A stretch of DNA of 9,117 bases from contig JAJOLG010000053.1 of the NCBI GenBank assembly GCA_021129445.1, positions 1-9,117 on the forward strand, given 5' to 3'. The notes below the pieces were generated by a model. The model saw only the letters and a list, made by a program, of their open reading frames with translations, made no database searches and was not told the DNA's origin. Both the position numbers and the translations under genes were made by a program. The DNA comes from Candidatus Altimarinota bacterium (lineage in GTDB: Bacteria > Patescibacteriota > Gracilibacteria > GCA-2401425 > JAJOLG01). Positions 1-9,117 of this stretch are shown in pieces (within the stretch, counting starts at the first letter, position 1; each line of letters opens with the position of its first letter).

Positions 1-375
1 TATTGTAATAAACTTGTTGAAAATTGAGAGTCTGTGATAATTACAGGGGATTTTAATGTTTGTCATCAGGAAATTGACATCGCAAGACCAAAAGAAAATC
101 AAAATTCAATTTGATTTTTGCCAATTGAGAGAGCAAAAATTTGAGAGTTTCTGGATAATTGATATATTGATGTTTTTAGATTTAAAAATCCTGATTTAAC
201 TGATAAATATACCTGGTGGTCGTATCGTTGAGGTGCTAGATCTAGAAATGTTGGCTGGAGATTGGATTATTTTTTTGTTTCAAAAGATTTAATTTGAAAA
301 GTTAAAAATGTTGATCATCTTGATCAACAAATGGGTTCCGACCATTGTCCAATTGTTTTGGAAATTGATTTATAA
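1..375 (+). CDS. xthA: Exonuclease III-family AP endonuclease, C-terminal part (5' end outside window)
   Basis: This frame is open from base 1 to a TAA at 373-375 and gives the last 124 residues of an exonuclease III-type endonuclease/exonuclease/phosphatase protein. The family cuts the DNA backbone 5' of abasic sites in base-excision repair and usually has about 250-270 residues, so roughly half is missing at the window edge. Visible signatures, in fragment numbering, are GDFN (Asp17, Asn19), a GFLP loop, the YTWWSYR..GAR..NVGWRLDYF block (Asp89) and the terminal SDHCP with the catalytic Asp114-His115 pair. Six in-frame TGA codons fall at plausible glycine positions, including the Gly of GFLP, while the family tryptophans are TGG. 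The gene converges on the PH-domain gene with only 7 bp between the stop codons. The family assignment is firm; the exact orthology within it is less so. Confidence 0.95.
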
Positions 376-382
376 AAATTTT

Positions 383-1006
383 TTAATTTCTCCTAAATCA
401 ATTTTTTTTAACTCAATTATTTCAATTTTTTTCCAAACGTTCAGAAATTATTTCTCATAAAAGTGATTTTAATCATTCTTTATCGATTTCTTGTCATTCT
501 CAAAAATTTATTCATCAAATTCTCGAAATTTTTCTTGCCTCTAAAATTTTTAACTCGGCCTCTTTTGGGTTTGCAGTGTGTTTAAAAAGTATTTCTCATG
601 CAGGTCTTTCGATATGTAAATCTCAAAAATCAAAAATTGATGATAAAATTCAAGATAATTCAAAACTTATATCTTCAATTGATTCGTATTCCATTCTTGA
701 TGATGAACTTTTAAAAAATCAATCCCATTGATAATGAACAATTCAATAATCTGTTAAAGTCAATGTATCCAAATACCAATCGAAAAAATCATAAATTGCC
801 ATTACGGCAACAAATAAAAATCAAAATACTATATAAGAATAGTATTGAGGATAAAGCCAAACTAAAAATCCTGGAATAAAAATTCATAAAATTGACCACT
901 TAAAAACTGGTCAGACAAAGTCAATCCAATGTTTATGGACAATATGAATAACTTCCTCGTCTTCATCAAGTTGCCTTTTTAGGAAAAAACTTTCTAATTT
1001 ATTCAT
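383..1006 (-). CDS. Two-helix membrane protein with bacterial PH-like domain (DUF304/bPH2 type)
   Basis: A 207-residue protein begins at ATG 1006-1004 and ends at TAA 385-383, read with TGA as Gly. The N-terminus is charged and contains a KHW motif. Two hydrophobic segments follow at about residues 36-52 and 55-73. Then comes the pattern typical of the YdbT/DUF304 bacterial PH family: D-W-Y-L-D-T-L-T-L-T, a Q-W-D-G-F-F-K stretch, I-E-D-I, a G-I-L..I-F-D-F-G-D segment and E-R-P-A-G. The last 50 or so residues are charged and probably helical. The function of such small membrane PH proteins is generally unknown, so I infer only a membrane-associated role with the PH-like part facing the cytoplasm. 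It lies 37 bp downstream of the pseudouridine synthase on the same strand with no terminator between them, so co-transcription is likely. No Shine-Dalgarno sequence is visible. Confidence 0.85.
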
Positions 1007-1043
1007 TTTTTAAATTTTTTTAGATTTTTGAAAATTTTTTATT

Positions 1044-2075
1044 TTATGCAAGGTTTTTTAAACATTTTTTTAAATCATCAGAAATTTTTAACTTGAATTT
1101 TATTTTTTTTCAAGTTGTTGGGTGTGTAATTTCAAAAAAATACGAGTGTAAAAAATGTCTTTTTAATCAAATTTCTTTTTGAAAAATTTTGTTAAATTTA
1201 AAATCTCAATATATTTGATCCATTATAAGCGGTGTTCATTTTGACTTCATATGGACACGAATTTGATGCATTCTTCAAGTTTTTATATTTAAATCCATCA
1301 ATGAAAATTTTTCAATTTTATCTCAAATTTTTTTGGAAAATGTTTTTATAATTTTAAAATTTGTTTGGCTAATTAATGCATTTTTATCTCACTTTTTTGC
1401 CAAAATAACTTTGTCTCAATTTTTTCAATCAGTTCTTTTTACAAGGCAAATAATTTTTCAAGATTTTTCTCTAATTTCTCATTTTATCAATGCAAAATAT
1501 TTTTTTTCAACTTTTCTTTTTTTTATCATTTCATTGATTTTTCTCAAAGTTTCAGATTTTTTTGCAAATAATAAAACTCATGAGGTATCAGCATCAAGAC
1601 GATGAGCAAGCTGAATAAAATTGTCTCATCAGGGATTTTTTTTCTCCAAATAATATTTTGCAAAACAAATCATCGTTTTTCATTCCGGGTGATTGCTTCA
1701 CGGATGAACCGCAATTCATGCGGGTTTGTCTGCTACTAAAATTTCTTCATCTTCAAAAATAATTTTAAAATTTTCTTGAAAATTTTTTTCTGAAACAAAA
1801 TTTTTTTTATTTTTATCCAAAATTTTTCAAGTTTTTTCTAAAAATTTTTTATTTTTTTCAAAATTTTTTTCCATTTCTCATCAAATAAAAATCGAAATTT
1901 CATCTCATTTTTTTGCAATTTCATCTTGTTTTACTCGTTTTCAATTGATTTTTACATCCTTTTGCCTGAAAATTTTTTGGATATCTCAAAGTTGCAATTC
2001 TTTAAAATTGTCTTTTATGATTTTAAAAATCTTTCTTCAATTATCTTTTTCGGTGATTGTAAAAGTTTTTTTCAT
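1044..2075 (-). CDS. RluC/RluD-type 23S rRNA pseudouridine synthase with S4 domain
   Basis: This 343-residue protein starts at ATG 2075-2073, the first ATG in an open frame reaching back to about 2123, and ends at TAA 1046-1044. An S4-like RNA-binding domain occupies about residues 10-65, with the pattern DVKINGKRVK..GDEISI. A lysine-rich linker follows, then the RluA-superfamily catalytic domain: DKPAG..VHPG, HRLDADTSGVLLFA with the presumed catalytic Asp161, a KKYFALIKG strand and the late T-G-R-MHQIRVHM motif. These enzymes isomerise specific uridines of 23S rRNA; RluC, RluD and relatives share this architecture, and I cannot tell which uridines are modified. Several signature glycines (PAG, TSG, TGR) are TGA. 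It is the first gene of a minus-strand pair with the PH protein and diverges from tatD. The linker at about residues 68-100 is longer and more Lys/Asn-rich than I would expect. Confidence 0.95.
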
Positions 2076-2149
2076 TGTTTTTCTTTTATTGAAAAAAAAT
2101 TTTTGATTTGTGCAAAATTTTTTTTAAAAATTTAAAAAAATCTAAAAAT
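2076..2149. promoter_or_regulatory. Divergent promoter region between rluD-like gene and tatD
   Basis: This 74-bp gap lies between two divergent start codons, so it should carry promoters for both directions. It is almost pure A/T. On the minus strand a TTGCAC hexamer at 2115-2110 is followed after about 19 nt by AATAAA. On the plus strand TTGATT at 2103-2108 has a TAAAAA about 16 nt downstream. Both matches are weak and base composition alone could produce them; the position is better evidence than the motifs. Neither start codon has a Shine-Dalgarno sequence. Confidence 0.35.
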
Positions 2150-2902
2150 ATGATAGACACACATTGCCATCTTTATCGGAAAAACATGCCAAAAATTGAA
2201 GAAACTTTGGCAAATGCAGAAAAAGTTTGAGTTAAAAAATTTGTAAATGTTTGAACAGATATTTCAACTACTAAAAAAGCCTTTGAGCAAGCGAAAAAGT
2301 TCGATAAGATTTTTTTCACAGCTTGAATTCATCCGGTTGATTCAAATTCTTGCGAAATAGATTGGCAGGAATTTGAAAATTTTTTGAAAGAAAAAAAATG
2401 TTTAGCGGTTGGAGAGTGCGGTTTTGACTTTTATCATCAGCCTTTTGATGAGAAAATTCAGGATGAGGTCTTTTTAAAACAAAAAGAATTGGCAAAAAAA
2501 TATGATTTACCGTTAGTAATTCACAATAGAAATGCTTGAATGAAGATTTTTGATTTTCTTGAAAAATGAGATAAATTTGTAATTCATTGTTTTTCTGAAA
2601 ATGCAGAATTTGCAAAAAAAGTTGTGGAATTTGATTGAATGATTTCAGTTTGAGGAATTTTAACTTATCCAAAAGCTTATGAATTACGAGAAATTATAAA
2701 AAATTTTCCGCTTGAAAAAATTATGCTTGAAACAGATGCGCCATTTTTGGCACCACAAAAATTTCGTTGAAAACCTAATCAGTCTGCATTTATGAAGGAA
2801 GTTTTGATAAAAATTTCTGAGTTGAAAAATATGAATATCCTGGAATTGGAAGAAATTTTAGATGAAAATTCAGAAAAATTTTTTGGATTTGAAAATAAAT
2901 AA
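2150..2902 (+). CDS. tatD: TatD-family metal-dependent DNase
   Basis: A 250-residue protein, close to the usual 250-260 of the family, runs from ATG 2150 to TAA 2900-2902. The metal ligands are all in place: DTHCH at the N-terminus (His5, His7), the GECGFDFY motif with Glu89, VIHNRN (His125), VIHCFSE (His146) and the LETDAP motif with Asp196. This is the amidohydrolase-type TIM barrel of TatD/YcfH nucleases, which act on DNA 3' ends and have been tied to repair and DNA turnover; it should be cytoplasmic. TGA encodes Gly at family positions such as the G of GIHP and the G of F-R-G-K-P-N. CGA occurs in Y-E-L-R-E-I-I-K, a spot where the family normally has Arg. The gene heads a plus-strand run; the next gene starts 5 nt after its stop, so the two are probably translated together. 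There is no visible Shine-Dalgarno sequence. Confidence 0.96.
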
Positions 2903-2907
2903 AAAAT

Positions 2908-3882
2908 TTGAGTAAAAATAAATTTTTTACAGGCATAAAAATTTTTTTTAATAATTTTTTTCAAGCAAAAATTGTTTGAAAAAATATTTTTAAGCATTGA
3001 AAATTTTGAGAAAAAATTTTTTTAGAAAAAGTTAAATTTTTTATAAATATTTTGATTTTTGCTTTGTTTATCTTAATTTTGTGGAATCCAAGTTTTTGAA
3101 TTTCTGAACAAGATAAAAAAAATATTTCCTACGAAATTGTATTTTGACTTGACAATTCTTTATCGATGTTGTCTTTAGACTGAAAAGAAAAAGGAAGGTT
3201 TGATAGAGCAAAAGATAAAATTTTAGAAATTGTTAATTGAATAAATTGAGAATTTTGACTATTAAAATTTGCTTGAAATAGCTATGTTTCTATACCTTTT
3301 ACTTTTGATAAAAATAGTTTTTCAATAATTTTAAAAAAAATTGATATTGAAAAAGGTGCAAGAAAATGAACAGATTTCGCATCAATAAAAGAAAATTTGA
3401 ATAAAATTTTTAATTTAAAAAAAGATAAGGATAAAATTTTAATTTTACTTTCAGATTGAGAAAATTTGGAAGGGGATTTTGTGGATTTGGAGTTTTTTAA
3501 AAAGAATAAAATTCATGTTTTAACAATTTGATTTTGAAATGAAAATTGATCAAAAATTTTTTTGTGAAAAAATAAAAATTGAGAAAGTATTTTTAAAAAA
3601 TATGATTGAGAAGAGGTTTTGTCAAAGCTTAATAAAAAATTTTTAGAAAATTTATCAAAAGACACTTGATGAAAATATTTTTCCGAATATGATAATTTTG
3701 AGAAAATTTTTACTTTTATTCAGAAAAATTTTGAGAAAAAAATAATTTTGGAAAAAGAAATTCAGGAAAAAAAATATTTTCAATTATTTGCTTTTTTGGC
3801 TTTTTTGTTGATAATTATTGAAATTTATTTGGAAAGAATTTTTAAAATATTAAAAAAAAATAAAAAAAATATTTTTAAATAA
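2908..3882 (+). CDS. Membrane-anchored von Willebrand factor A (vWA) protein, BatA/BatB-like
   Basis: This 324-residue protein has one transmembrane segment at about residues 44-59 (ending L-W-N-P), a vWA domain, and a C-terminal transmembrane segment at about 292-312. The metal-ion-dependent adhesion site is complete: D-N-S-L-S (Asp82, Ser84, Ser86), Thr155 in K-G-T-D and Asp183 in L-L-S-D-G. The layout of helix, P-x motif, vWA and terminal helix matches BatA/BatB-type proteins of Bat/MoxR systems, although no MoxR ATPase gene lies in the window. The likely role is metal-dependent protein binding at the membrane; the partner is unknown. The only reasonable start is TTG at 2908, because no ATG precedes the MIDAS motif, an in-frame TAA sits at 2896-2898, and the basic N-terminus before the helix fits the family. 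It starts 5 nt after tatD. The C-terminal tail is an A-rich run coding mainly Lys/Asn. Confidence 0.9.
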
Positions 3883-3944
3883 AAAAAAATTTGTTTTAAT
3901 GATAAAAAAAAATATTTTCATATAAAAATAAAAAAAATATAAAA

Positions 3945-5150
3945 ATGAATAAATTTCAAGAAAAAATAAAGGATAAAATTCATGATTTTTTATCTTCAAA
4001 TATTTCTGCAATAATGTTTTCGTTATTGTGATTATTTATATTAAATTTAATAATTTTCTGAGTTTTATATAAAATTTGAAAACCTGAATTACCAATTTAT
4101 TCAATAGTTTTAATACAATTTTTGGTTTCAATTATAGTTTTTTGAATTTATATTTTTTTTGTTTGACTGCCTTTACAGAATATTTTAAGAGAGATTCAAC
4201 ATCTTGTTGACTGAAAAGAATTTAATAAAATTGAATTTAGAAGAAATGATGAAATTTGAAAAATTTCTCATTTTATAAATCAAGTTGTAAAAAGGGTTTG
4301 AGATTTAGCTGATGAGCTACATGAATGAAAAAGGGTGAAATGAGAAGTTGATACAGCATCGCAGATTCAAGCATCTACAATGCCGACAAAAGCACCTGAT
4401 TGAATTATTTGACTTGATATAATTGCACAAAGTAAGTCTTCATCAGAAATTTGATGAGATTGTTATGATGTTATTCAGCAATGAACAAACACTTTGATTT
4501 ATCTTTGAGATGTAACTTGACATTGAGTTCCGGCAGCTCTTGTGATGATGATGGCAAATGTTTCAATTAAAACTCTTGCAGATTGAAATCTGAATTCAGT
4601 TGATATTTATAAAAAAACCAATGATTTGCTTTTTGAAAAAATTAAAACAAATCATTTTATGTCTTCTGTAATGTTAAGGTGGGATAATGAAAGACAAAAA
4701 ATGTATCGGACTTGAGCATGACATGAGACAATTATTCATTATTCAAAAGAAACTTGAAAAGCTACAAATATTAAAACTTGATGAATTGCAATTAAAATGG
4801 TTAAAAATATTTGAAATATTTTACAAGAAAAAGAAATTGATTTTAAGGAATGAGATGTTTTAATTTTATATTCTGATTGAATTACAGAAGCTAAAAATGA
4901 AAAATGAGAAATGTATAAATTAGAACATTTTACGGAGATTATTGAGAAAAATTGAGAAAATGCATCAAGTGTAATTTTTGATAATTTTACAAGAGATTAT
5001 TCAAAATTTGTCTGAACCATGCCACAAGAGGATGATGTAACTTTTATTTTAATAAAAAATATTTGACAATATTGATGAAAACCTTTTATTAAAATTTGAT
5101 CATCAAAAGATAATGATCAGTGAATCTCATCAACAAAATGGAGTTGGTAA
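3945..5150 (+). CDS. Membrane HAMP-PP2C (SpoIIE/RsbU-type) serine/threonine phosphatase
   Basis: The 401-residue product starts at ATG 3945 and ends at TAA 5148-5150. Two transmembrane helices lie at about residues 20-43 and 51-73. A HAMP-like linker follows at about 75-118, with P-L-Q-N-I near the start and R-N-D-E-I-G-K-I-S near the end. The rest is a PPM/SpoIIE-type phosphatase domain with its acidic metal ligands: G-G-D-C-Y-D (Asp172, Asp175), G-D-V-T-G-H-G (Asp189), Y-S-D-G-I-T-E-A (Asp311) and E-D-D-V-T-F (Asp363/364). Such enzymes dephosphorylate anti-sigma-factor antagonists or other phosphoproteins in signalling; no partner kinase or STAS protein is in the window. The extracytoplasmic loop between the helices is very short, so sensing probably occurs in or near the membrane. 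A 62-bp A/T-rich gap separates it from the vWA gene, with a TATAAA at 3921-3926 but no clear -35. The C-terminal tail after the catalytic domain is Gly/Ser-rich and ends T-K-W-S-W. Confidence 0.93.
5140..5143 (+). promoter_or_regulatory. Shine-Dalgarno-like GGAG before the nitroreductase start
   Basis: GGAG sits 8 nt before the ATG at 5152, within the last codons of the phosphatase gene. It is the only purine-rich Shine-Dalgarno-like site I see at any start in the window. With a 1-nt gap between stop and start, it suggests translational coupling of the two genes. Confidence 0.5.
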
Positions 5151-5151
5151 T

Positions 5152-5793
5152 ATGTGAGTTGTTGATGTTTTAAAATCAAGAAGGGCAATTCATAATTATA
5201 TTCCAAATAAAAAAATTCCAAGAGAAGATTTTGAAAAAATTTTTGATACAGTAAGGTATACTCCGTCTTGATACAACGCTCAACCTTGGGAGTTTGTTGT
5301 AATCGAAGATGAGGAAAAAAAGAAGGAGTTGCAAAAAATTGCATTTAATCAATCACATGTTTCACAAGCATCTGCAGTGATTTGTGTTTTAGGTGATGTA
5401 AATATTTGAAGAAATGCGGAAAAGATTTTAAAAGAGTGGGTTGAATATTGATATTGCAAAGAAGAAAAAGTACTGGCTTATAGAAATGCTTTTACAAAAA
5501 AAAGATCAGAGCAAAGACTTCGTGAAATGGCAATTCGTAATGTTTCTTTGGCCTGTATGAATATTTTACTTGTTGCAAAAGAATTATGATTTGCGACTTG
5601 TCCAATGCTTTGATTTAACCAACCTTCTTTATCTGATTTTCTGGAATTACCAAAAGAAATTATTCCAATTATGATGATTACTATTTGATATGAAAATACC
5701 TGAAAGGAAAGAAAAAAATTGCCTTTAAAAAGTTTAGATGAAATTTTGCATTTTGAAAAATTTGAAAAGTATAAAAATAAAACCGCTTTTTAG
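5152..5793 (+). CDS. Nitroreductase-family FMN oxidoreductase
   Basis: A 213-residue protein runs from ATG 5152, 1 nt after the phosphatase stop, to TAG 5791-5793, the only TAG stop among the complete genes here. The N-terminal S-R-R-A-I-H-N-Y (residues 9-16) is the FMN phosphate-binding motif of the family, and T-P-S-G-Y-N-A-Q-P-W (37-46) is the second signature that contacts the flavin. The C-terminal half has the usual M-A-I-R-N-V-S-L-A helix, the L-G-F-A-T-C-P-M-L-G strand and the I-G-Y-E-N motif. Members use NAD(P)H to reduce nitroaromatics, quinones, flavins or other substrates in the cytoplasm; the physiological substrate cannot be read from sequence. The last codons and the stop lie within the terminator hairpin. 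The ATG is followed directly by TGA, so the protein begins Met-Gly. It is the last gene of the tatD-vWA-PP2C run. Confidence 0.94.
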
Positions 5794-5814
5794 CGGTTTT
5801 ATTTTATTTTTTTA
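5774..5814. terminator. Bidirectional intrinsic terminator overlapping the nitroreductase stop
   Basis: A hairpin with arms 5774-5787 and 5792-5805 has a core of AAAACCGCT paired with AGCGGTTTT, extended by further A-T pairs, around a TTTT loop at 5788-5791. A T-rich tail follows on the plus strand (to about 5814), and the A-rich left flank gives a T-rich tail when read on the minus strand. It lies between the convergent nitroreductase and surface-protein genes, so it most likely ends transcription from both sides. The GC-rich core stands out from the surrounding A/T sequence. Confidence 0.9.
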
Positions 5815-5832
5815 TTGTTGTAGAAATATATT

Positions 5833-6942
5833 TTAATTACTTGAAATCGAATTATTTTCATTTCAATTCTTATCAATAACTGCTCATATTCAAAGTGTAA
5901 ATGAATTAGATTCTGCTCAATAAATATCAATTTGATTTTGTGTAATATCAAAATCTGTAATTGTTCAATTTGTGGTTAGAAGTTCTAAAAAGTTTTTATT
6001 TGGATTTTCCATTATATTTTCATCAAAAAATATTTTTAAAATTTTATTTGTTGCATCGTAAGTTTTACTTATAAATTGTGGTTTTTTATTGTCGATTAAA
6101 ATTTCTCATCAGATTGTATCTCAAACGACTAAGTTTTTATCATTAATTCTTCAATCTAAATCAGAGATTAAATTATCATCAATAATTATTCTTCAAAAAT
6201 CAACTTTAAATAAATTGTTAAAAGTTAAAACTAATTCATTTTGATGTATTTGAAATTGTAGATTTTGTGGTGTAAATTTTGTCAAAGTGTTGTAATCTGA
6301 ATAAAAAGTTATTCAATCTTTCAATGCAAAATCATAATATTTTCAATTTTTAATATCTTTGTCAAAATAAATTGTAATTCAGGTTCAGCTTTCATTAATT
6401 TTATAATTTGCATTTATTCAAGGTTGTTTAGTTAAAACTGGGTAATTTACAGTATTATTTTCCAAATTGGCTTCATTTACAACTTCTCATAATTTTAAAT
6501 ATTGTGTAGTTCATTGGAATTTATATCTCCGTCAGTATGGACATGTTGGTTTTGAAGTTATATTGTCAATTGCAATATCTATATTTTGATTATCATTATC
6601 TAAAACATAATAATTTAAATAAGTTTTACCATCTTTTTGCAAAATTCAGTTGTTTATTATATCATTAGATGGTGAAAATGATAAAGTTGGTTCAACTTGT
6701 CTTCATGTTTCTCAATCGTAAATTATATTTTCTTCACTTGTATTAAATAAATCTGCTTTAAAGTTTTCTGAATTTTGTGAGTAAAAAATTGTAAAAACAA
6801 AAATGAAAGAAAACATTAAAGCGAAAACAAAGTCTTTTTTTGTAATTTTTTTATACATTTTTTGTTCAAATTCTTGCCTTTTTTGTTTAAAATCAATATT
6901 TTGATTTTTTATCTGCTGTTGATTGTTTTTATCGTTATGCAT
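5833..6942 (-). CDS. Membrane-anchored extracytoplasmic protein with Ig-like domain (SbsA/Big_5-like)
   Basis: The 369-residue product runs from ATG 6942-6940 to TAA 5835-5833. A Gln/Asn/Lys-rich hydrophilic N-terminus (1-37) leads to a single hydrophobic segment at about 38-54, then a long polar, Asn/Asp-rich region without further helices. This suggests an N-terminal membrane anchor with the remainder outside the cell. The last 90 or so residues (D-N-K-K-P-Q-F-I, K-I-L-K-I-F-F-D-E-N-I, ending in V-I-D-K-N-G-N) resemble SbsA-type Ig-like domains of surface proteins, and an earlier repeat-like copy (I-T-I-Y-F-D-K-D-I) is visible near residue 195. A cell-surface or adhesion role is inference only. 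Met29, just before the basic stretch and helix, would be a more typical signal-anchor start and cannot be excluded. Nearly all glycines are TGA. It lies 95 bp downstream of hrcA on the same strand, across an A/T-only gap with a TATAAA at 6980-6975 but no clear -35. Confidence 0.8.
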
Positions 6943-7037
6943 ATATTTTTTTTAAAAAAATTAAATCAAAATATTTTATATAAAAAAAAATATTTTTTAT
7001 AAATTTTATCTTGTAAAAAACAAAATTTATTATTTTT

Positions 7038-7778
7038 TTATAATTCTAATTTTTTAATATAATTTTCTCAATCTATCATTGCCTTTGCTTCTTCTAAAAG
7101 TGCAATATTTATTCAATAATTCATTTTCATTGGTCACAAAATTCAAATAATTCATTGAAATCAAAATGAATTATATTTTATTGCAAGCATTGAACAAGAT
7201 TCAAATTGTGGGAAAATATTTTCATCTCATATAAAAGTTTTTACTTCGATTTCTGAAATTTTTACATCGTTCAATTTTCAAATCAATCATCATTCAAAAA
7301 CCTCGATTACTGATGATAATTCCTCGATGTCTTGCAAAGAATTTGTTCTCAAAAAATTTCATAATCACAAAAAAATATTTTTTTCATTTTTTGGAATTGT
7401 TGCAAAAGCAATATTTTTTGTAAGCGATGACAAAATTTTTATTGATTCTGAAACTTTTTCTTTTGCCTTTTTTAAGGCAAAAATTTTTCTTGCTTCTTCA
7501 AATTGTTTTTTCGCAATTTCGCGATTTTTTTTCAAATTTCAGAAGTTTTCATTGCTTAATTCCAAATATTTTTTATAAGCTTTTTCTGTTGGAATCCTTC
7601 ATCCCGAGGTGTAAGGCGAAATCAAAAGACCTTCTTTTTCAAGAGAATTCATCTCTTTTCTGATTGTTGCAGAGCTTACAGAAAATTCCTCAGATAAAAC
7701 TGATGATCAAACTGGTGATCAAATTTTTATGTAGTTCTCAATAATTCTCAATAAAATATTTTTTTTTCTCTCTTGCAT
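7038..7778 (-). CDS. hrcA: HrcA-like heat-shock repressor, short form
   Basis: A 246-residue protein runs from ATG 7778-7776 to TAA 7040-7038. Residues 1-65 match the HrcA winged helix: E-R-K at the start, Y-I-K-I-G-S-P-V-G-S-S, the recognition helix S-S-A-T-I-R-K-E-M-N-S-L-E-K-E-G-L, and T-S-G-G-R-I-P-T (57-64), equivalent to the usual TSAGR-PT wing. Near the C-terminus G-P-M-K-M-N-Y-G corresponds to the family GPxRMxY motif. HrcA represses chaperone genes by binding CIRCE and needs GroEL for activity in the systems studied. This copy is about 90-100 residues shorter than typical HrcA (about 340), with the loss in the central ligand-like and inserted dimerisation region. No chaperone gene and no canonical CIRCE element is in the window. 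It diverges from thrS, and a good sigma70-type promoter lies upstream. The fold assignment is strong; the regulatory target is unknown. Confidence 0.88.
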
Positions 7779-7801
7779 TTTTTATTAAAAAATTTTTTTT
7801 A

Positions 7802-7830
7802 ATTATTTTAATTTTTTTTTATTGTGTCAA
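7802..7830 (-). promoter_or_regulatory. Sigma70-type promoter for hrcA
   Basis: On the minus strand a perfect TTGACA (7830-7825) is followed after 17 nt by AATAAT (7807-7802), which matches the -10 consensus at five of six positions. Transcription would begin near 7795, giving a leader of under 20 nt before the hrcA ATG at 7778. The -35 box forms one arm of the palindrome at 7826-7844. Confidence 0.6.
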
Positions 7831-7844
7831 AAAATTTTTTTGAC
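7826..7844. repeat. 19-nt palindrome in the hrcA/thrS divergent gap (candidate operator)
   Basis: The arms GTCAAAAAA and TTTTTTGAC are perfect inverted repeats around a single T at 7835. Each arm ends in a TTGAC core that would serve as the -35 box of the promoter on its side. The site is therefore placed to affect transcription both ways. It bears no resemblance to CIRCE. An A/T-rich genome will produce A6T6 palindromes by chance, but the GTC/GAC ends and the promoter overlap make this one notable. Confidence 0.5.
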
Positions 7845-7867
7845 TAATAAAATATTTTTTTTATTTT
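7840..7867 (+). promoter_or_regulatory. Possible promoter for thrS
   Basis: TTGACT at 7840-7845 matches the -35 consensus at five of six positions. A weak -10 candidate, TATTTT, follows after 16 nt at 7862-7867, about 20 nt before the thrS ATG. The -35 is the other arm of the palindrome shared with the hrcA promoter. The -10 is poor, so this is tentative. Confidence 0.35.
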
Positions 7868-7887
7868 TTTTGAAAAAAATAAGTGTT

Positions 7888-9117
7888 ATGAGTGAAATAA
7901 AAACAATTAGGCATAGTTGAGCACATCTTTTAGCAATGGCAGTTTTGGATATGTTTCCAGATGCAAAATTTTGAACTTGACCAGATACGAAAGATGGGTT
8001 TTATTATGATTTTTTGCTTCCAAGAGCGCTTTCGCCAGAAGATTTAAAAATCCTTGAAAAGAAGATGAAAAATTTTTCTCAGCAGGCTTTTAAATATGAG
8101 CAATTTGATATGGAAATTAATGAAGCAATACAGTTTTTGAAAGAGAAGAATCAAGATTTTAAAGTTGAAATTGCAGAAGATTTAAAAAAATCATGAGAAA
8201 CAAAATTATCATTTTATAAATTGTGAAATTTTGTAGATATGTGTTCTTGACCACATGTTGAGCATACTTGAAAAGTAAAACATTTCAAATTGACAAATAT
8301 TTCATGAGCATATTTTAGATGAGATTCAGAAAAACCAATGCTACAAAGGGTTTATTGAGTTTGTTTTGAGACAAAAGAGGATTTGCAAAATTATGAAAAA
8401 ATGCTTGTTGAAGCCAAAAAAAGAGACCATAGAGTTTTATGAAAAAAAATGTGATTATTTACTTTTTCTGAAAAAGTTTGAGCTTGATTACCACTTTTTA
8501 CCGTAAAATGAACAAAAATTAGAAATGCAATTGTTAGGGAAATTCAGGCTTTGCAGAGAAAATATTGATATTGAGAATCTGATGTTTCAATTCCTCATAT
8601 TACAAAAAAAGATTTATATGAAGCAAGTGGGCATTGGGCAAAGTATAAAGACGATTTATTTCATGTACAATGAAAATCCGATACAGAATTTGTAATGAAA
8701 CCAATGAATTGTCCGCACCATACTCAAATTTTTGCTTGTGAACCAAGGTCTTACAGAGATTTACCAGTTAGAATGACAGAGGTCACAACTTGTTATCGTG
8801 ATGAATTAGCATGAGAATTATCTTGAATTTCAAGGGTTCGCTCGCTTACTCAGGATGATTGACATATTTTTTGTACAGTTTGACAAATTAAAGAAGAAGC
8901 TTGAAAAATCGTAAATATTATCAAAGATTTTTATACAAAGTTGGAAATGTTTGATGAGAAAAATTATTGGGTTTCGCTTTCTGTTCGTGATTCAAAAACT
9001 CCAGAAAAATATTTATGAGATTCAGAAAAATGGGATAAGGCAGAGCAATTTTTAAAAGAAGTTGCTGATGAAAATAATTTAAATTATGAAAGAATTGAGT
9101 GAGAAGCTGCATTTTAT
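7888..9117 (+). CDS. thrS: Threonyl-tRNA synthetase lacking the TGS domain (3' end outside window)
   Basis: The frame is open from ATG 7888 to the last base, giving 410 residues without a stop. The N-terminal editing domain has its usual residues: H-S-G-A-H (His9, His13) and D-M-C-S-G-P-H-V (Asp117, Cys119, His123), followed by the S-G-A-Y-F-R-G-D motif. The class II catalytic core follows, with S-G-H-W, M-N-C-P-H-H (zinc ligand Cys275), motif 2 Y-R-D-E (Arg304) and T-Q-D-D-G-H-I-F-C (zinc ligand His326). The third zinc ligand and the anticodon-binding domain would lie beyond the window. The protein starts directly at the editing domain, so the N-terminal TGS domain of standard bacterial ThrRS (about 60 residues) is absent; no in-frame upstream coding fits within the divergent gap. 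It charges tRNA-Thr and clears Ser-tRNA-Thr. By hand count about 25 glycines are TGA and only 2 are GGN. No Shine-Dalgarno sequence is seen. Confidence 0.96.

Follow-up and report, generated by a model that had tools for sequence, protein, structure and literature searches.

UGA read as glycine and CGG very probably read as tryptophan in an AT-rich Peregrinibacteria lineage: a likely second origin of the UGA change

The stretch of DNA considered here, contig JAJOLG010000053.1 of GenBank assembly GCA_021129445.1 (9,117 nucleotides, hereafter the window), belongs, as contig C33, to a draft genome of 673 kb in 77 contigs, designated G000, for which a completeness of 94.8% and a contamination of 0.54% are listed. 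By alignment UGA stands for glycine in this genome beyond doubt, CGG very probably stands for tryptophan, and CGA has remained arginine. The comparisons described below make it quite likely that the change of UGA from stop to glycine took place independently of that in JAEDAM01, the clade formed by Gracilibacteria (BD1-5) and Absconditabacteria, and that it occurred, together with the change of CGG from arginine to tryptophan, in a lineage of Peregrinibacteria. The source of the window would in all likelihood be a tiny uncultured bacterium of an AT-rich, small-genome lineage of that group (Patescibacteria).

Meaning of UGA and CGG in the genome

The assignment of UGA follows from alignments at several scales. 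Across the genome, 3,705 aligned TGA columns in 183 genes put glycine 4,750 nats ahead of the next-best residue and leave tryptophan 11,200 nats worse than glycine; these scores assume independent columns and are inflated in size, but the order of the residues is secure. Such a profile-based inference had been named as a check by the original prediction, a reading of the window alone, and it returned glycine for TGA and tryptophan for TGG. When 18 ribosomal proteins were compared with 24 standard-code genomes, 233 TGA codons were scored and glycine was found in 145 of the 155 conserved columns. In orthologues from the closest relative found, Candidatus Peregrinibacteria isolate NORP126 (NVTB01; G001), glycine (mostly GGA) stands opposite 152 of 200 TGA codons and tryptophan opposite none. 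For the threonyl-tRNA synthetase (ThrRS) of the window, 20 of the 25 TGA positions are glycine in the NORP126 enzyme.

That TGA is also the dominant glycine codon, as originally proposed, holds well beyond the window. In 339 kb of G000 it occurs 5,866 times against 976 GGN codons (86% of glycine codons), and only 2 of the 246 genes are without it. In marker genes its share reaches 94%, the highest among 16 genomes that read TGA as glycine; the 15 code-25 genomes in this set range from 0.01 (G092) to 0.71 (G022). UGG is still tryptophan, and genes in the 339 kb end at TAA (216) or TAG (30).

Other readings of the codon, as tryptophan (code 4) or as a site of readthrough or selenocysteine insertion, have practically no chance of being correct. 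Tryptophan is the common reassignment of UGA in bacteria (PMC8629427), but the alignments rule it out, both by its absence at all 200 positions compared with NORP126 and by the genome-wide scores. Rare recoding is excluded by the 35 TGA codons within one gene.

The apparent reassignment of CGG had been missed by the original prediction and is an addition to it. After removal of overlapping shadow frames, 17 CGG codons in 16 genes were scored. The majority residue is tryptophan in 8 of these columns, aromatic in 14 and arginine in 1, and tryptophan leads arginine by 49.8 nats (at least 44.4 on leaving out any gene). As a baseline, tryptophan is the majority in 0.16% of 1,899 columns with arginine codons. 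For CGA (16 columns) arginine scores best and tryptophan is 45.8 nats worse. The CGG sites include the contexts PRxAVAYKFPA and KPHxxLGE, which we take to be motifs of DNA ligase and seryl-tRNA synthetase (SerRS), respectively. In NORP126 and in the genome G012 both CGG and CGA are aligned to arginine. The published CGA = Trp of Absconditabacteria was recovered by the same pipeline in family f12. Ribosomal proteins of G000 contain no CGG, so this set allows no conclusion. A tRNA with anticodon CCG (G000:C5:3026-3102, L056) has a Trp-like A1:U72 pair and G73, whereas the two other arginine tRNAs found in G000 have A73; together with an arginine-type feature of its D-loop (see below), this leaves its charging ambiguous on sequence grounds.

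Three CGG codons are present in the window:

2177..2179, + strand: CGG codon in tatD; tryptophan rather than arginine would follow from the genome-wide rule, this single site being weak
4707..4709, + strand: CGG codon in the SpoIIE phosphatase; tyrosine in two relatives, probably tryptophan and not arginine
6529..6531, − strand: CGG codon in an unknown protein; presumably tryptophan by the genome-wide rule

Since CGG is apparently reassigned, NCBI translation table 25 would mistranslate these three codons.

Phylogenetic placement and origin of the code

From the use of TGA the original prediction had pointed to Gracilibacteria/Absconditabacteria. This affiliation found no support, as G000 groups with a Peregrinibacterium that uses the standard code. 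By classification G000 and NORP126 belong to one order, and NORP126 is the only order-mate of G000 among the genomes compared. It possesses prfB, its prfA has no TGA, and 28 of 177 open reading frames (ORFs) end at TGA, which indicates the standard code. In the ribosomal-protein tree TGA was treated as missing data, so the trait itself cannot pull the tree. G000 and NORP126 are joined at 100/99 and nested among standard-code families. The approximately unbiased (AU) test rejects a tree in which every TGA = Gly genome falls into a single clade, with p = 0.0015 for ribosomal proteins and p 0.0087 when rpoB is added. Dayhoff-6 recoding keeps G000 with NORP126 among standard-code genomes. The ThrRS of the window is sister to that of NORP126 with support of 99 (69% identical), and its best three matches in named genomes are all from Peregrinibacteria. 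The closest named relatives of G000 are Peregrinibacteria, outside JAEDAM01.

The distribution of prfB in the class was surveyed in 353 genomes. The gene is missing in families f12, f15, f18 and f19, with G126 as the exception, and present in nearly all others. Alignment inference on f12 and on f15/f18/f19 gave TGA = Gly; in view of this and of the CGA = Trp recovered for f12, these families fit Absconditabacteria and Gracilibacteria. In G126, a member of f15, a full-strength prfB (507.7 bits) occurs at G126:C153:10080-11129; the bin measures 2.7 Mb in 500 contigs, which suggests contamination.

Because G000 sits with NORP126 in standard-code families and a single clade is rejected, a second origin of UGA as glycine is the most likely explanation. 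In a possible course of events, AT pressure (the GC content is 25%, that of NORP126 about 35%) and genome shrinkage would have made UGA stops rare. Release factor 2 (RF2) would then have been lost, a tRNA-Gly with a UCA anticodon would have captured UGA, and GGA may have drifted to TGA until the latter made up 86-94% of glycine codons. For low-GC clades, codon capture by this route has been discussed (PMC8629427). CGG could be read by the tRNA(CCG) with its Trp-like end bases (A1:U72, G73).

Several observations weigh against an independent change in Peregrinibacteria. The chief ground for caution is that both UGA = Gly and CGG = Trp are shared with members of JAEDAM01, which is simplest under one origin. 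With rpoB alone a single TGA = Gly clade has a borderline p of 0.051. NORP126 is represented in the tree by 7 of the 18 ribosomal proteins, G000 forms a long AT-rich branch, and the ThrRS tree has a mixed history in other parts. No tRNA-Gly(UCA) turned up in G000 when it was sought with a covariance model, with ARAGORN in 79% of the sequence and by pattern in all of it, and prfA was not found in searches that included a code-25 tblastn of 533 kb, the assembly being incomplete in the relevant genes. Further, inspection of the tRNA(CCG) by hand shows an A in its D-loop, at the site that serves as an arginine mark.

Assembly gaps are the likely reason why tRNA-Gly(UCA) and prfA are missing. In total 26 tRNAs were found in G000; those for Met, Glu, Leu-UAA and Arg-UCU, among others, were not found despite the listed completeness, nor was a tmRNA in 533 kb. 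As other essential tRNAs are missing as well, and as the model RF00005 misses the BD1-5 form of tRNA-Gly(UCA), the absence of this tRNA cannot be used against the code; the tRNA itself is visible in several known code-25 genomes. Loss of RF1 was considered and rejected, since TAA and TAG serve as stops and need RF1, and a gap is likelier. In NORP126 tRNA-Arg(UCU) is a neighbour of prfA, no more than about 1 kb away. That this neighbour is also missing in G000, although AGA is its main arginine codon, makes a gap at prfA likely. The gene for RF2, prfB, whose absence the original prediction had expected, was not found in the draft genome by genome searches or by tblastn with code 25 over the 533 kb. 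The same kind of search did find thrS despite its 25 TGA codons, but with a draft that is ~95% complete an assembly gap could hide prfB.

The scans of G000 also yielded some tRNA-like sequences of separate interest. Searches for intron-split tRNAs gave implausible matches only. At G000:C13:2043-2071 (L064, minus strand), some 100 bases downstream from tRNA-Ile, there is an orphan T-arm with a CCA end for which no 5' half was found. Two tRNAs have the anticodon CCA, at G000:C8:1944-2019 (L059) and G000:C4:12830-12904 (L055); the one on C8 is unlike a normal tRNA-Trp in having C1:G72, G37 and A73. In an f12 genome a SAM riboswitch (L284:1173-1270) adjoins a tRNA cluster.

In view of the above, different histories can be considered. 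If there was one origin, G000 would be placed in or next to JAEDAM01, its grouping with Peregrinibacteria would be a tree artefact, and UGA = Gly, perhaps also CGG = Trp, would be inherited, leaving a code near ordinary code 25. That other families of the same class reassign the same codon, that CGG = Trp is also found in Absconditabacteria and in part of the Gracilibacteria (PMC8629427), and that rpoB by itself is borderline are in agreement with this. It nevertheless appears unlikely in view of the AU tests, the 100/99 grouping with NORP126 and the Dayhoff-6 result. Composition is expected to draw G000 toward the AT-rich code-25 genomes, not away from them, three separate contigs are concordant, and CGA is arginine in G000 but tryptophan in f12. 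A chimeric bin, in which contigs of a code-25 contaminant are mixed with those of a Peregrinibacterium, might be suspected in a draft of 77 contigs. However, the same genes combine Peregrinibacteria affinity with dense TGA (26 in rplB, 31 and 27 in the two segments of rpoB, 25 in thrS). These three contigs fall outside the known code-25 clade while each is dense in TGA, which argues against a chimera. With TGA in 244 of 246 genes and the low listed contamination, this explanation is highly improbable.

Hardly more probable is that UGA = Gly was ancestral to the whole class and returned to stop in all Peregrinibacteria except the lineage of G000. It would account for a tRNA-Gly(UCA)-like gene in the bin of G012, a standard-code relative that has prfB. 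Yet prfB would have had to be regained and TGA removed from all genes, nearly all other families of the class possess prfB, and the G012 gene lies on a contig of 7.3 kb whose binning is unproved. The tRNA in question (G012:C1:4485-4561; L281:1467-1543) has anticodon UCA, glycine-type ends (GCGGGAG...CTCCCGC, U73) and a body similar to that of Absconditabacteria tRNA-Gly(UCA). If it truly belongs to that genome, it may mark an intermediate state. A more far-reaching proposal, which we hold to be possible but doubtful, is that the UGA and CGG changes in Peregrinibacteria are both second origins that arose by convergence with Absconditabacteria/Gracilibacteria in a class primed for them. G012 may then possess tRNA-Gly(UCA) alongside RF2 and represent a present-day intermediate, with UGA serving at once as stop and as glycine codon.

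Genes and coding layout of the window

Once TGA is read through, 95% of the window lies inside ten densely packed open frames; nine genes had been counted originally. Together the frames contain 180 in-frame TGA, 19 GGN and 18 TGG codons; TAA and TAG are absent from their interior and close every frame that ends within the window. The longest run free of TAA and TAG is 443 codons, compared with a mean of 103 and a maximum of 141 in 50 shuffles. With table 11 no ORF of the window is longer than 118 amino acids. Gene calling with that table gives a coding fraction of 0.05 instead of 0.83, in line with the expectation that standard-code gene calling would fail. Under code 25, 8 of the 10 frames match Pfam families (E 2.6e-17 to 5.8e-72; vWA 2.1e-11, exonuclease 1.2e-15). 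The genes are as follows:

1..375, + strand: exonuclease III-like gene, 3' part, running off the window start; PF03372, E 1.2e-15; 6 TGA; stop TAA; GFLP with TGA, YTWW and NVGW with TGG
383..1006, − strand: membrane protein without Pfam match; 17 in-frame TGA, 1 GGN
1044..2075, − strand: RluA-type pseudouridine synthase; PF00849, E 8.4e-30; 24 TGA, 0 GGN; glycines of DTSG and TGRMHQIR are TGA
2150..2902, + strand: TatD-family nuclease; PF01026, E 5.8e-72; 8 TGA; CGG at 2177-2179
2908..3882, + strand: vWA-domain protein; PF13519, E 2.1e-11; 20 TGA; glycines of SDG in the MIDAS region and of GLDNS are TGA
3945..5150, + strand: SpoIIE-type PP2C phosphatase; PF07228, E 1.7e-38; 35 TGA, 0 GGN; glycines of GGDCYD, GHG and SDG are TGA; CGG at 4707-4709
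5152..5793, + strand: nitroreductase; PF00881, E 3.5e-30; 8 TGA; stop TAG
5833..6942, − strand: unknown protein with a single N-terminal hydrophobic stretch, no Pfam match; 21 TGA; CGG at 6529-6531
7038..7778, − strand: HrcA heat-shock repressor; PF01628, E 2.6e-17; 16 TGA
7888..9117, + strand: thrS, 5' part, running off the contig end; PF00587 and PF07973; 25 TGA, 2 GGN

Reading the conserved motifs codon by codon bears out the original claim that TGA falls on invariant glycines and TGG on expected tryptophans. TGA is found in CSGPH, RGD, SDG (vWA), GGDCYD, GHG and SDG (SpoIIE/PP2C), DTSG, TGRMHQIR, GIHP and GFLP, and TGG in QPW, SGHW, YTWW and NVGW. The numbers given for thrS, about 25 TGA and 2 GGN, were exact. 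At the FRxK position of TatD the aligned residue in relatives from the Protein Data Bank (PDB) is glycine.

Relation to known codes and significance

That UGA codes for glycine is established for Absconditabacteria and Gracilibacteria (PMC8629427, PMC6851277, PMC13059738) and forms NCBI table 25, the code of SR1 and Gracilibacteria (Campbell 2013, Rinke 2013 and Hanke 2014, cited after PMC8629427 and PMC6851277). G000 resembles table 25 in having UGA as glycine, UGG as tryptophan and UAA/UAG as stops, and in that prfB was not found. It differs in that CGG is very probably tryptophan, so that not all other codons are standard, in its affiliation with Peregrinibacteria, and in a TGA share of glycine codons in marker genes of 0.94 compared with at most 0.71. 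In Absconditabacteria CGA and CGG are both tryptophan, and CGG = Trp has been predicted in some Gracilibacteria (BD1-5) (PMC8629427). With the former G000 shares UGA = Gly and probably CGG = Trp, but CGA is aligned to arginine and the clade is different. The latter have the same pair of changes, but G000 is separate from them in the ribosomal-protein and combined trees. NORP126, with a ThrRS 69% identical, is by contrast unlike G000 in its prfB, its use of TGA as stop, its CGG and CGA for arginine and its higher GC content. No report of either change in Peregrinibacteria was found in the open literature searched, most subscription papers and preprints lying outside the scope of the search.

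For practical purposes, the genes of G000 are broken up by table 11, and CGG would come out wrong even with table 25. So far the change of UGA to glycine has been regarded as having happened once, confined to one clade, JAEDAM01 (PMC13293708, a 2026 review that cites Ivanova 2014). Another origin beside standard-code sisters would be a natural replicate of that event, by which the question why glycine is chosen becomes testable, and the order of events would be open to study through comparison of close relatives. Together with it, the probable change of CGG in G000 points to AT-rich, genome-shrinking conditions that may push the same codons twice.

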